Assembly: GCA_016223105.1 (NCBI GenBank)
Contig: JACRPR010000045.1
Coordinates: forward strand, 1 to 32,043
DNA: 32,043 nucleotides
Direction of reading: 5' to 3'
From: Chloroflexota bacterium
Lineage (GTDB): Bacteria > Chloroflexota > Anaerolineae > UBA4142
The notes beneath the pieces were generated by a model. The model searched no databases. It was not told the origin of the DNA and saw only the letters and a program-made list of their open reading frames with translations. The position numbers were made by a program, and so were the translations under genes. Positions 21,569 to 29,703 of this stretch are shown piece after piece. Each line of letters begins with the position of its first letter. Positions within the stretch are counted from its first letter, which is position 1.

Positions 21569-21658
21569 CTTGAGGTTGGAAATTGGAAGTTGGACATTGG
21601 AAATTGGAGCGTCCAACCTCGAATTTCAAACTTCCAACTTCCAATCTCTAATTTCTAT
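21569..21658. repeat. TGGA-N3 heptamer hairpin, fusA/tuf spacer
   Basis: tgaggttggaaattggaagttggacattggaaattgga gcg tccaacctcgaatttcaaacttccaacttccaatctctaatttcta. Confidence 0.85.
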
Positions 21659-23647
21659 TTTTTCCCGATCACCTGCTCCGCCAAATTCGCGGGCAGTTGA
21701 TCATAGTGATCGAATTCCATCGTAAATGTGCCGCGCCCCTGGGTTGCCGAGCGCAAATCGGTCGCGTATCCAAACATTGTCGCCAGCGGCACGAACGCGT
21801 GAATCGCCGTTACGCCGCCGGTGCGCGCTTCCATTCCTTCAACATGCGCGCGGCGCGCGGAGAGATCACCAATCGCATCGCCCATAAAATTTTCTGGAAT
21901 CACGACTTCCACTTTCATAATCGGCTCGAGCAAAACCGGGTTGGCTTTATGCACGCCGGCTTTCAACGCCATCGAGCCCGCGATCTTGAACGCCATTTCA
22001 GACGAGTCAACTTCGTGATACGATCCGTCCACCATGCGTGCGCGAATGTCCACGAGCGGATAGCCCGCGATCACGCCGCTATCGAGCGATTCGCGAATAC
22101 CTTTTTCAACCGCGTTGTGGTATTCTTTCGGAATCACTCCGCCGCGCAATTCATTCTCGAATTCAAAGCCCTTGCCTTTTTCGAGCGGTTCGAGTTCGAG
22201 CCAAACGTGACCGAATTGTCCGCGCCCGCCGGTCTGTCGCACAAAGCGACCTTCCGCGCGCACGGGGCGCGTGATCGTTTCACGATACGCGACCCGAAAT
22301 GATCGTTTGCCCGGTTTCTTCATCCGTGCGAACGCGGAACGTCGGGTCTTCTTCGGAGAGCCGGCGCAATGCCTCGCCCATTTTTTCTTGATCCGCTTTG
22401 GTGCGCGGTTCAATCGCGACCGAGATCACTTGTTCGGGGAACTTGATCGCTTCGAGCAGAATGGGTGCGCTGGGATCGCACAACGTATCGCCGGTAAATG
22501 TATTCTTGGGTCCGATGATCGCGGCAATGTCGCCCGCGAGCACTTCTTCGACTTCTTCGCGCGAATTCGCGTGCATTCGCACCAAACGTCCGATGCGTTC
22601 GCGTTGCCCGCGCGTCGTGTTCATCAAGCCCTGTCCGGTCGCGACCTTGCCCGAATAAACGCGAATGTAAGCAAGGCGTCCGACGTACGGATCGGTTACG
22701 ATTTTGAAGGCGAGCGCAGAAGTTGCCGCGTTCTCATCGGCGTCGCGACGTTCTTCTTTTTCCACATCGTCCGGCGCGACGCCGCGCACCGCGGGAATAT
22801 CCATCGGCGACGGCAAATAATCTATGACCGCGTCGAGTACGGCTTGCACGCCCTTGTTGCGTAACGCCGCGCCGCTCAACACCGGCACAAGTTTGCCGGC
22901 AATCGTCGCGCGCCGTAATGCCGCGCGTAATTCCACTTCGGAAATTTCTTCGCCTTCGAGATATTTGGTCGTCAGTCCCTCGTCCGTCTCCGCGATCACT
23001 TCGATCATCGCCGAACGTTGATGCGCCGCGTCCGCTTGCAATTCCGCACGAATTGGGCGCGTCTCGGGCGGCGCGTCAATATCATCGCCGTACACGATTT
23101 CGACCTGGCTCATCAGATCGACGAATCCAACATACGCGGCTTCCGCACCGAGCGGCATTTGGATCACGACCGGGCGCGCGCCCAATCGATCCACGATCAT
23201 TTCAATCGTGCGCTGAAAATTCGCGCCCGTGCGATCCATCTTGTTGATGAATGCCAGGCGCGGCACGCCGAAGCGATCCGCTTGTCGCCACACCGTTTCG
23301 GATTGCGGTTGCACACCGGCGACCGCGTCGAACACGACAATGCCGCCATCCAACACGCGCAAAGAGCGTTGCACTTCGGCGGTGAAATCAATGTGCCCGG
23401 GTGTATCAATCAAATTGATTTGACATTCGCGCCATTCGCACGTTGTCGCCGCCGCGGTAATCGTAATGCCGCGCTCACGCTCCTGCACCATCCAATCCAT
23501 TACCGCCGTGCCGTCGTGCACTTCGCCGATCTTGTAGGTTTTGCCGGTGAAATATAAAATCCGCTCACTGACGGTTGTCTTGCCCGCGTCAATGTGCGCG
23601 ATCACGCCGATATTTCGAATTCGTTCGAGAGGGACTGTTCTTGCCAT
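21655..23647 (-). CDS. fusA: Elongation factor G, frameshifted with internal deletion
   Basis: 5' frame [25 protein letters not shown]...[13 protein letters not shown]; 3' frame [36 protein letters not shown]...EQVIGKK*. Span is 1993 nt (not divisible by 3). Confidence 0.95.
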
Positions 23648-24205: not shown

Positions 24206-24224
24206 TCTAGTTACCTCGTTAAAT

Positions 24225-24308
24225 AGTTGGTTAGTTGGTTAGTTGGCTAGTTGTATAGTTGGAGCGCTTTCCAACTATGCAACTATCGAACTATTAAACT
24301 AACTAACT
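24225..24308. repeat. TAGT-N4 octamer hairpin, rpsL/rpsG spacer
   Basis: 39-nt arms 24225-24263 and 24270-24308 with 6-nt loop gcgctt; the right arm encodes the rpsL stop. Confidence 0.85.
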
Positions 24309-24734
24309 AACTGGTGCGGCTTCTTTCGGCGCTTTGGTGCCATACTTGCTTCGCGCTTTGCGCCGCTTGTCCACGCCGGTCGTATCGAACGCGCCGCGCA
24401 CGATATGATAGCGCACGCCGGGCAAATCTTTCACGCGACCGCCGCGAATCAAAACAACCGAGTGCTCTTGCAATTGATGCCCTTCACCCGGAATATACGC
24501 GGTTACTTCGATTCCATTTGTAAGCCGGACGCGCGCAATTTTCCGCAAAGCCGAGTTCGGTTTCTTCGGTGTCATTGTGCGGACGACTGTGCAGACCCCG
24601 CGCTTGAGCGGCGAGCCCTTGCCCCGGTTCAAGCGATTTCGCAAAGTGTTCAAATTAAAGCGCAGAGCCGGCGCTTTAGTCTTTTTGCTTTGTTGTTTGC
24701 GTCCCTTGCGAACCAATTGATTGATCGTTGGCAC
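24303..24734 (-). CDS. rpsL: 30S ribosomal protein S12
   Basis: [24 protein letters not shown]...[67 protein letters not shown]. Confidence 0.98.
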
Positions 24735-24748
24735 TCTTCCTCCAGATC

Positions 24749-24776
24749 GTACGGCAAATTTACAAATTTGGCGTAC
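24749..24776. repeat. GCAAATTTACAAATTTGGC palindrome at the rpsL leader end
   Basis: gtacggcaaatttacaaatttggcgtac. Confidence 0.65.
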
Positions 24777-24792
24777 CGTTTAGAGAACAAAA

Positions 24793-24868
24793 CACCCTTC
24801 CCCGCTAATTCTGGGCGCAAATTTAGCGTGGGCTCGTAGCACCACGCCAAGTCTGCTCGGGAAGGGTG
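24793..24868 (-). ncRNA. Candidate structured leader element of the str operon
   Basis: 10-bp perfect closing stem cacccttccc (24793-24802) with gggaagggtg (24859-24868), enclosing GC-rich substructure, in the rpsL 5' UTR. Confidence 0.5.
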
Positions 24869-25081
24869 ATAAAATCCTTCCGTCCATCGTGCGGACGATA
24901 TGGGTCTGGTCGTTCAATCGCGTTTCCACGTTTTTTGTCGCGGACAACGATTTTGCGAAAACTTTCAACACTCTCTCAATGATTCGTGAGAATGTGAGAC
25001 CCCATCAACGTGAATCGCTGTTTGCAGATGGACTTGGCACGCGTGCTACGCCAAGCCAATCACGACTCACCACAAGGCGCA

Positions 25082-25109
25082 AATATACTCTTTTTTTTTC
25101 AATTGTCAA
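25082..25109 (-). promoter_or_regulatory. Sigma70-type promoter for the ribosomal super-operon
   Basis: Minus strand TTGACA (25109-25104), 16-nt spacer, TATATT (25087-25082). Confidence 0.7.
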
Positions 25110-25564: not shown

Positions 25565-25868
25565 ACAATCGAATAGTAAAAACGTCGAGCCGGAGGAGTA
25601 GATTTTTCCGCGCTGAAAGAGAAGAAGAGTCGTCGGGTGGAAACTCTTCCCAGCAGAGAAAATCGAAGGTCGCCGGGGAGTTGGATCAATGAATCGCACA
25701 CGCGGTTAAGTTGATCCCGGCATACACCGTTATTGTATTGAGATGAAAATCAGAGTAATTGGTAAGTAGTAATTAGTAATTACCATTTACCATTTACTAT
25801 TTACTTGGTTTTCAATCAAGGTGGTACCGCGAATTCCCTTTGCCCTTGAGGTGAAGGGAGTTTTTTAT
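25565..25868 (+). promoter_or_regulatory. T-box riboswitch leader with terminator; candidate Val (GTC) specifier
   Basis: T-box core aaggtggtaccgcg at 25818-25831; terminator ccctttgcccttgaggtgaagggagtttttt; stem I gatttt/aaaatc flanked by AGTA and gaaGGTCg, with GTC at 25669-25671. Confidence 0.88.
25761..25804. repeat. GTAATTA/ATTTACC heptamer palindrome inside the T-box linker
   Basis: ggtaagtagtaattagtaattaccatttaccatttactatttac. Confidence 0.8.
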
Positions 25869-26513: not shown

Positions 26514-27050
26514 ATGACAACGCGAAGATTGGTGTGGGGGATGACGTGGCAAGGCGGTCGTTGGGCCCTCTGGACAGCAATAATTGGAGGTGTCTCTAAC
26601 TTTGTTTTGGGTTCGATTGTTGCAAATATCTGGAACAGTTACAGTGCCCAATTTCCTCCCCTTATGCCCGATAGCAGTATTGCTTTTGCAATAATTTTTC
26701 TATTTTTTTCAACACCAATCTTTGCCCTGGGTATATACTTGTCCGGAATCTCAACTGGACTATTGAGTGGTCTCATTACAATCAAATACTTCTATCCTCC
26801 AGTTGATACACTATTGTATAAAAAGGTCATTTTGCTCGCAGGGATATTTTTCAACTTGATCGTGGGATTGACTATCTTGACGATAATTTTTGGGAGTGCC
26901 CTTACAAAAGAGGTGCCGGTCACAATTATCTTTCTTGTCATTCCGTCATGCATCAACGCAATATCCGGTTTGTTTATTACACTTCAACTTGGGCTGTGGT
27001 ACGAACGCGAATCCGCCAAAGGAATTTCACAAAATGTTTCATCCAACTGA
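26514..27050 (+). CDS. Small multi-pass membrane protein (paralogue 2)
   Basis: MTTRRLVWGMTWQGGRWALWTAIIGGVSNFVLGSIVAN... aligns with paralogue 1 N-terminus. Confidence 0.6.
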   Translation: MTTRRLVWGMTWQGGRWALWTAIIGGVSNFVLGSIVANIWNSYSAQFPPLMPDSSIAFAIIFLFFSTPIFALGIYLSGISTGLLSGLITIKYFYPPVDTLLYKKVILLAGIFFNLIVGLTILTIIFGSALTKEVPVTIIFLVIPSCINAISGLFITLQLGLWYERESAKGISQNVSSN

Positions 27051-27121
27051 AACACGCAAAACAAAATCACCAACCGTCACTGTTCCCAGCCCCGCGCCAA
27101 TTTCCGGCGTCGGCGCGGGGA

Positions 27122-27152
27122 CAATCTCTCAATCTCTCAATCTCTGAATCTC
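27122..27152. repeat. AATCTCTC octamer tandem repeat upstream of valS
   Basis: aatctctc x3 then aatctctg. Confidence 0.75.
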
Positions 27153-27175
27153 TACTCACGAGGAGTTATATCAAA

Positions 27176-29703
27176 ATGTCACACCAACCCGAAATGCCCA
27201 AAGCGTACGATCCCCGAACCGTCGAGCAACGGCTCTACGAGTGGTGGGAGGCGCGCGGCTATTTCAAACCCAGGATCGATCCCAGCAAAAAGCCGTTCGT
27301 GATTTCGATTCCGCCGCCGAACGTCACCGGCGAATTGCATCACGGACACGCCATGTTCGTCGCGTTCGAAGATTTGATGATTCGCTGGCATCGCATGCTC
27401 GGCGACCCAACGCTCTGGGTGCCGGGATCGGATCACGCCGGAATCGCGACACAAAACGTCGTCGAAAAAAATTTAGCAAAGCAAGGGATCGCGCGCCAAC
27501 ATCTCGGACGCGAAGAATTTGTGAAACGCGTATGGGAATGGAAAGCCGAGTACGGCGACATTATCAATATGCAAATTCGCCGGATGGGCGCGACGTGCGA
27601 TTGGACGCGCGAACGTTTTACGCTCGACGATGGTTTATCCCGCGCAGTGCGCGAAGCATTCGTGCGCTTGTACGAAAAAGGTTTGATCTATCGCGGACCG
27701 CGCCTCATCAATTGGTGTCCGCGTTGCGAAACCGCGATCAGCGATCTCGAAGTCGAGCACGAAGAAACGAATGCCAAGTTGTATTACGTGAAATATCGGC
27801 TCGATCCTTCGACTCCCGCTTCGACAAGCTCAGCGTCCGCTCAGGATGAATTTATCACAGTCGCGACAACGCGTCCCGAAACAATCCTGGGTGATACCGC
27901 AATCGCAGTGCATCCCAAAGATGATCGCTATAAAAAATTGATCGGGCGCATCGCGATTTTGCCCGCGCTCGGTCGCAGGATTCCGATTATCGCGGACGAA
28001 TCGGTTGCCATCGAGTTCGGCACCGGCGCGGTCAAGGTAACACCCCGATCAAGGGCGTGAAGAGCGGCGACATTCAAATCGTGCCAGAGCGATTCAACAA
28101 AATCTATTTCGATTGGATGAACAACATTCGCGATTGGTGTATCTCGCGCCAACTGTGGTGGGGACATCGCATCCCGGTGTGGTACTGCGCGAACGGACAT
28201 CAAACGTGCGCGCGGATCGATCCGACCGCGTGCGCGACGTGCGGCTCGACCAACATCACGCAAGACGAAGACGTGCTGGATACCTGGTTTTCGTCCGGGC
28301 TGTGGCCCTTTTCAACCCTGGGTTGGCCCCAAGCGACGCCTGACCTCGCGTACTTTTATCCGACGACCGTGCTTGAAACCGGGTATGACATTTTATTCTT
28401 CTGGGTCGCGCGCATGATTATGGACGGGTACGAATTCACCGGCAAGCGACCATTCGAAACGGTGTACTTGCACGGCTTGATGCGGCACAAGGACGGATCG
28501 AAGATCAGCAAATCGAATCCGCAACCGGGCGACAATCCGCTCGATGTGATCGCGGATTACAGCGCGGACGCGTTGCGCTTTACGATCATTACCTCGTCCG
28601 CGCCGGGCAACGACACGAAACTCGATCTGGAAAAAGTGGAGCACGCGCGCAACTTTGCAAATAAAATTTGGAATATGGCGCGCTTTATCACGAGCAATCT
28701 AAAACCGAATGAGCCAATTGTGCCAATTACCAATTACCAATTACTCAATCTCGCGGATCGTTGGATTCTTTCGCGACTCAATCGCGCGATTGCGGATGTG
28801 GACGCGGCGTATCGCAAATGGGATTTTGGCGAAGGCACACGCGCGATTCACGATTTTCTGTGGAGCGAGTTTGCGGATTGGTACATCGAAGCGTCGAAGG
28901 TCGCGCTCTATGGCAGTGATGCGAACGCGGCGCAACGCACGCGCGCGATTTTGCTGTACGCGCTCGATCAAGGTTTGCGCTTACTGCATCCGACGATGCC
29001 GTTCGTCACCGAAGAGACCTGGCAACAACTGCGCGCGTTTGGATTGCCCAGCCAGTACGACGCGCTGATCGTCGCGGAATATCCCAAGCCAATCAAAAAA
29101 TTTCTCGATCCGCGCGCAGAAAAAGATTTCGCGGTCGTGATGGAAATTGTGCGCGCGATTCGCAACGCACGCGCCGAGTTCAACGTCGAACCGGGCAAGC
29201 GCATTCCGGCGATCATTTCCGCCAGGCGCGCGCGCGATTTGCTCGCGTCGCAAAGCGAGATCATCGCGTCGCTCGCGCGGCTCGATGCCGCGCAATTCCA
29301 AGTCGTCCCGCGCGCGCAAAAACCGGCGCAAGCGCTCGCGCTCGTGGTCGGCAAAATCGAAATCTATTTACCGCTCGCTGGGATGATTGACCTCGAAAAA
29401 GAAAAGGCGCGGCTGGCGAAAGAAATCGCGAATGGGCGCGGCGCGATTGAGCGCGCGGAAAAACAACTCGCCAGCGATTTCAGCAAAAAAGCGCCGAAAG
29501 AAATCGTGGACAAGGTGCGCGAAACGCTCGCGGCGAATCAAGATCGCGTCGTGAAATTGGACGCGCAACTCGCGAGTGTGGAAGGCCGCGCGCCGGAGAA
29601 AACTGGGAACGCGAAAACCACGAAACCACGGAACACGAAAATCGCGAAAGGAACGAAATCCACGAAAAGAAGATCGGCGCAGAAGAAAAAATCGCGCAAA
29701 TGA
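27176..29703 (+). CDS. valS: Valyl-tRNA synthetase, frameshifted with internal deletion
   Basis: 5' part MSHQPEMPKAYDPRTVEQRLYEWW...PPPNVTGELHHGHAM...IEFGTGAVKVTP; 3' part in another frame IKGVKSGDIQIVPERFNKIYFDWMNNIRDWCISRQLWWGHRIPVWYC...DGSKISKS. Span is 2528 nt (not divisible by 3). Confidence 0.95.
27806..27849. repeat. REP-like palindromic element inside valS
   Basis: tccttcgactcccgcttcgacaagctcagcgtccgctcaggatga; encodes PSTPASTSSASAQD. Confidence 0.65.
28714..28745. repeat. CCAATTA heptamer tandem repeat inside valS
   Basis: ccaattgtgccaattaccaattaccaattac; encodes PIVPITNYQL. Confidence 0.7.

Follow-up and report, generated by a model that had tools for sequence, protein, structure and literature searches.

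Genomic context of the rpsL leader

The window, by which we mean the whole 32,043-nt stretch of DNA that was analyzed, carries on its minus strand the gene for ribosomal protein S12 (rpsL; 24303–24734), the first gene downstream of a structured leader, followed in order by rpsG, fusA, tuf, rpsJ, and rplC. Translation of rpsL starts at a GTG codon at position 24734, preceded by GGAGGA. Upstream lies a sigma-70-type promoter, TTGACA-16-TATATT (25082–25109, minus strand; 11/12 matches), and the resulting 5′ UTR is ~340 nt long, so that both the promoter and the long UTR described in the initial annotation are present. A promoter-like sequence occupies the equivalent place in those relatives read far enough upstream, and in some relatives the gene order rpoC-rpsL can be recognized by eye. 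Together with the closest named relatives of RpsL, this gene order points to an origin of the DNA in Chloroflexota, probably in the class Anaerolineae. The leader as a whole folds more stably than expected (z = −4.1).

Several further elements surround it. Between the terminator-like element T described below and the ribosome-binding site, the palindrome CGGTACGCCAAATTTGTAAATTTGCCGTACG (24748–24781) is a dispersed repeat, which explains why the leader has further matches within its own genome. The rpsL-rpsG spacer (24206–24302) is an inverted repeat of AGTTAGTTGG-type units, and the spacers of relatives are also filled by similar low-complexity palindromes. On the opposite strand to the rpsL leader, a T-box leader (Rfam RF00230, 103 bits; 25576–25850, plus strand) lies upstream of the valyl-tRNA synthetase gene valS (26948–29703, plus strand), with ~1.1 kb between them. 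In both valS (synthetase halves) and fusA (21655–23647, minus strand; EF-G domains I–III and IV–V), an apparent frameshift divides the gene into two open frames, suggesting assembly or sequencing indels.

A conserved, covarying RNA upstream of rpsL

We compared the leader across 20 genomes of the order, 18 of which yielded rpsL (13 from the family of the window, termed f1, and 5 from a sister family, f2). The same kind of leader precedes rpsL in all 18, and each of them folds below its dinucleotide shuffles (z from −3.0 to −9.5). The conserved part is a multi-helix RNA of ~290 nt, composed of a 5′ domain (P1/P2), a branched domain (P3–P6), and a final stem, T. In the 5′ domain (25010–25070, minus strand), helix P1 (25070–25063 with 25017–25010) encloses the variable hairpin P2, which includes the upstream hairpin CTTGGCGTAGCACGCGTGCCAAG (25055–25033) noted in the initial annotation and found here as described; the apex of P2 is not conserved among relatives. 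P1 is 99% paired with 20 double-change cells in 17 leaders, counted, as for P5/P5′, P7, and T, with helix strands assigned by hand. The branched domain (24901–25004, minus strand; model R1, 68.2 bits) comprises the closing stem P3, the hairpin P4 (24996–24969), and the P6 core (24915–24952, minus strand), in which two helices flank a 3 × 4 internal loop with the invariant letters GUCC and GGARAC (GGA.AC). Across P3/P4/P5/P6, 15 pairs are changed on both sides compared to 7.7 in shuffles, and the P6 core alone is 99.1% paired in the 18 leaders with 44 double-change cells compared to 11.9 in shuffles (0 of 500 reach 44), the shuffle controls being uncorrected for the relatedness of the leaders. 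Controls with slid partners, which do correct for relatedness, also give far lower values, with the proviso that such controls are biased towards a structure drawn from the very sequences being tested. Helices P1, P4, and P6 and the outer T stem covary strongly; covariation is weaker in the hairpin P7 (24881–24897, minus strand), formed by CGTCC (24897–24893) and GGACG (24885–24881).

The covariation analysis across related rpsL leaders that the initial annotation had proposed as a check thus came out in favour of a conserved structure in 18 genomes. In addition, a model built from f1 leaders only recovers all five f2 leaders (E ~1e-5 to 1e-7; 99 kb searched). The element, a conserved, structured RNA that covaries and lies in the 5′ UTR of ribosomal-protein genes, is thus probably a ribosomal-protein leader (r-leader). 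When we searched more widely with model R2, strong E-values among 298 genomes of the class were confined to the leaders of the order, only the leader of the window itself was matched among 400 sampled genomes of the phylum, and 80 other rpsL loci of the class gave nothing credible; the strict filters of the whole-genome scans miss weak matches, and restriction to the order holds at that sensitivity. Weak matches outside the order (L161 and L239–L241) were rejected, being located in or next to long open frames with scores to be expected by chance in hundreds of genomes. Other members of the class have shorter rpsL leaders with different hairpins.

A strong promoter, a compact conserved fold, and a terminator-like end would also suit a free-standing small RNA of ~290 nt, transcribed as a unit of its own and situated upstream of rpsL by chance. 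We consider this quite improbable, as the element always lies immediately upstream of rpsL in the 18 genomes, no copy away from rpsL was found in its own genome or elsewhere in related genomes, and no known RNA family matches. Rfam holds rpsL-leader models, and a search of Rfam returned no match of the leader at the gathering cut-off and none at E ≤5. The literature searched, which was mostly non-subscription, likewise yielded no report on Chloroflexota leaders of such kind and no description of the covarying P3–P6 domain. Two other ideas were examined and dropped: A likeness to 16S rRNA h44/h45 seen by eye (CCGUC..GACGUAAAAGGUUUCCGC versus CCGUC..GUCGUAACAAGGUAGC) found no support, since a profile search, covariance models, and a descriptor scan all detected no resemblance of the leader to 16S rRNA, and attenuation by a leader peptide was set aside because the short open frame that begins with the P1 GTG is, judged by eye, not kept between relatives.

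A terminator-like stem and its competing pairings

The T element (24793–24868, minus strand) is exactly the 76-nt structure of the initial annotation: Its arms CACCCTTCCC (24868–24859) and GGGAAGGGTG (24802–24793) form a perfect 10-bp stem (predicted pair probability 0.96–1.0) around a variable insert, and the element is strongly folded (z = −5.0). Immediately after it follows the U-rich tract TTTTGTTC (24785–24792, minus strand), a candidate termination point. Such a tract lies directly 3′ of T in 13/13 f1 leaders and in 0/5 f2 leaders. Stem lengths range from 7 to 12 bp in f1 and from 11 to 18 bp in f2, where the counterpart of T is a 17–18-bp hairpin without U-tract in four of the five leaders. 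The f2 leaders (L124–L128) also carry a second perfect hairpin, GCUACGAGGUU..AACCUCGUAGC, after the T counterpart, again without U-tract. The insert of T (38–69 nt) is large for a terminator, and a standard terminator pattern scan of the window did not report T. The seven inner pairs of its stem, CCCUUCC/GGAAGGG, barely vary, hinting that the sequence has a further role.

Such a role is offered by P8, a candidate antiterminator (24860–24881, minus strand) in which GGAAGG (24881–24876) pairs with CCTTCC (24865–24860) of the T 5′ arm, to the exclusion of T. An upstream GGAAGG or GAAGG able to form P8 is present in 9/13 f1 leaders; it is missing in L118, L121, L115, and L120, and P8 was not identified in f2 leaders. 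When growing transcripts of six leaders were folded, P8 formed first and T once its 3′ arm was made. At full length, the predicted P8/T balance is close in some of them (0.69/0.21 in L114, 0.61/0.38 in L123, 0.35/0.57 in L122), and in the window T has a probability near 1 and P8 near 0, so a ligand would here have to act kinetically.

Given these features, one may ask whether T terminates at all. The leader could instead regulate without termination, with T and the long hairpins serving in RNA processing (e.g., cleavage by RNase III) or mRNA stability, or with a regulator that acts on translation. The 17–18-bp counterpart without U-tract in four of five f2 leaders and the patchy occurrence of P8 fit this possibility, as does the str operon of E. 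coli, which is regulated at translation by S7 (PMC10931766). The U-rich run directly after the stem in all 13 f1 members speaks against it, however, and so does the stretch between T and the rpsL start codon, which varies from 24 to 166 nt among f1 leaders and takes up lineage-specific repeats. With a spacer so variable and repeat-filled, direct occlusion of the ribosome-binding site is unlikely, which favours control at the T stem. We regard a non-terminating leader as a possible but less probable explanation than attenuation at T.

The initial annotation had located the regulatory switch elsewhere, in a long-range pairing for which the upstream hairpin would unfold, pair with the interior of T, and break it. 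The complementarity on which it was based is real: CGTAGCAC (25043–25050, minus strand; in the P2 apex) is the exact complement of GTGCTACG (24835–24842, minus strand; inside the T insert). Taken alone, an 8-bp match is ordinary and occurs in half of the shuffled leaders; the complementarity extends in register beyond what had been noticed (CGTAGCAC..GCCAAGTC with GACTTGGC..GTGCTACG), and the resulting duplex, at −40.6 kcal/mol compared to −24.1 ± 4.0 in shuffles (reached by 0 of 200), is far beyond chance in this genome. It is also, as had been claimed, mutually exclusive with T, since enforcing it, which is 6.2 kcal/mol less favourable than the free fold, removes the stem of 10 bp and lets GGAAGG pair with CCTTCC in P8. 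Against this stand the stability of the upstream hairpin, which is made first, and an ensemble probability of the long-range pairs of only ~3e-5. The comparison with relatives, which the initial annotation had named as a refuting condition, came out against the pairing. Across the 13 f1 leaders, true partners pair no better than swapped ones (mean duplex energy −21.6 versus −21.7 kcal/mol; longest exact match 5.6 versus 5.5 bases), the two segments sit in the variable P2 apex and the variable T insert, and none of the 12 f1 relatives conserves the pairing, which is therefore private to this genome. As a switch we rate it very improbable, even if a private replacement is conceivable in a leader that lacks a strand found in its relatives (P5′, see below). 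Hence, the proposal of a regulatory leader of the super-operon (str/S10) is well supported insofar as the leader is structured and attenuator-like (covariation in 18 genomes, U-tract in 13/13, and P8 in 9/13 f1 leaders), and falls for 25043–25050 with 24835–24842 as its conserved switch.

That missing strand belongs to a second exchange of partners. In 10/13 f1 leaders, two alternative partners are available to GGUUUCCGCAAA, namely GAAACC (P5) and UUUGCGGAAAC (P5′); the P5′ strand is absent from the leader of the window. Both helices show covariation from few events, with 2 double-change cells in P5 (reached in 0.018 of column shuffles) and 4 in P5′ (0.005). The conserved competing pairings are P8 versus T and, in relatives only, P5 versus P5′.

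Proposed attenuation model and relation to known systems

Taken together, the evidence makes it probable that the leader is a new, order-restricted cis-regulatory r-leader of the rpsL super-operon, and that it belongs to the attenuator kind. In the mechanism we propose, the 5′ domain (P1/P2) and the branched domain (P3–P6) would fold first during transcription, after which P8 would hold the 5′ arm of the T stem as an antiterminator. The T 3′ arm would emerge ~60 nt later and could then displace P8, whereupon T and the U-rich tract would terminate transcription before rpsL. A regulator shifting the balance between P8 and T would bind to the conserved domains further upstream, and in particular to the P6 core and its GUCC/GGARAC loop. 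The most likely regulator would be a protein encoded in the operon, and an excess of it would then shut down these genes of the translation apparatus. The main difficulty for the attenuation reading is the missing U-tract in f2, which makes intrinsic termination unlikely in that family; the mechanism in f2 may therefore differ from that in f1. We also considered that P1–P6 might be a new recognition fold for a ribosomal protein without known autoregulation (e.g., S12), signalling to P8/T through the P5/P5′ exchange of GGUUUCCGCAAA, whose two alternative helices are both maintained in relatives by compensating changes; we hold this more specific version to be unlikely.

Attenuation ahead of rpsL has precedents. 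Attenuators in rpsL leaders have been predicted in Listeria, Xanthomonas, Pseudomonas, and Rickettsia (Naville and Gautheret 2010, PMC2965389), and no sequence or structure feature common to the rpsL leaders of different groups was reported (PMC2965389). The leader described here resembles them in having a terminator-like stem and a candidate antiterminator (P8, in 9/13 f1 leaders) upstream of rpsL and differs in shape and phylum. The rpsL motif of ‘Candidatus Pelagibacter ubique’, which consists of a bulged P1 and a three-stem junction and has been detected solely in Pelagibacter and in metagenomes of marine origin (Meyer et al. 2009, PMC2704228), is likewise a covarying RNA ahead of a long ribosomal-protein operon, located between rpoC and rpsL; here, in contrast, the 5′ and branched domains are combined with a terminator-like stem, in another phylum. 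In E. coli, S7 targets the rpsL-rpsG spacer and acts on translation (PMC10931766). Our leader shares with this system the str operon and the presumed feedback by an operon protein, whereas here the conserved RNA precedes rpsL, and the rpsL-rpsG spacer is a repeat. On this comparison, the leader is probably a new r-leader that would work like the rpsL attenuators, outside any described family compared.

How the str operon is controlled in bacteria other than E. coli has received little study; according to a recent review, no other phyla have been examined for uS7-mediated control (PMC10931766). With an rpsL leader that covaries, is confined to one order, and joins a defined core motif to a layout of terminator and antiterminator, such control becomes directly testable on one RNA of ~290 nt. 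The leader also presents a control RNA that swaps its end module between sister families, with the U-tract present in one and absent in the other, and keeps its core. Elsewhere in the class, in other families, the short rpsL leaders of L038, L048, L063, L132, and L137, as well as of L129–L131, L138, and L140, carry a strong hairpin of a common type (GAGGCCAYC..GRUGGCCUC or CCGAGGC..GCCUCGG), which perhaps represents another family of rpsL leaders.
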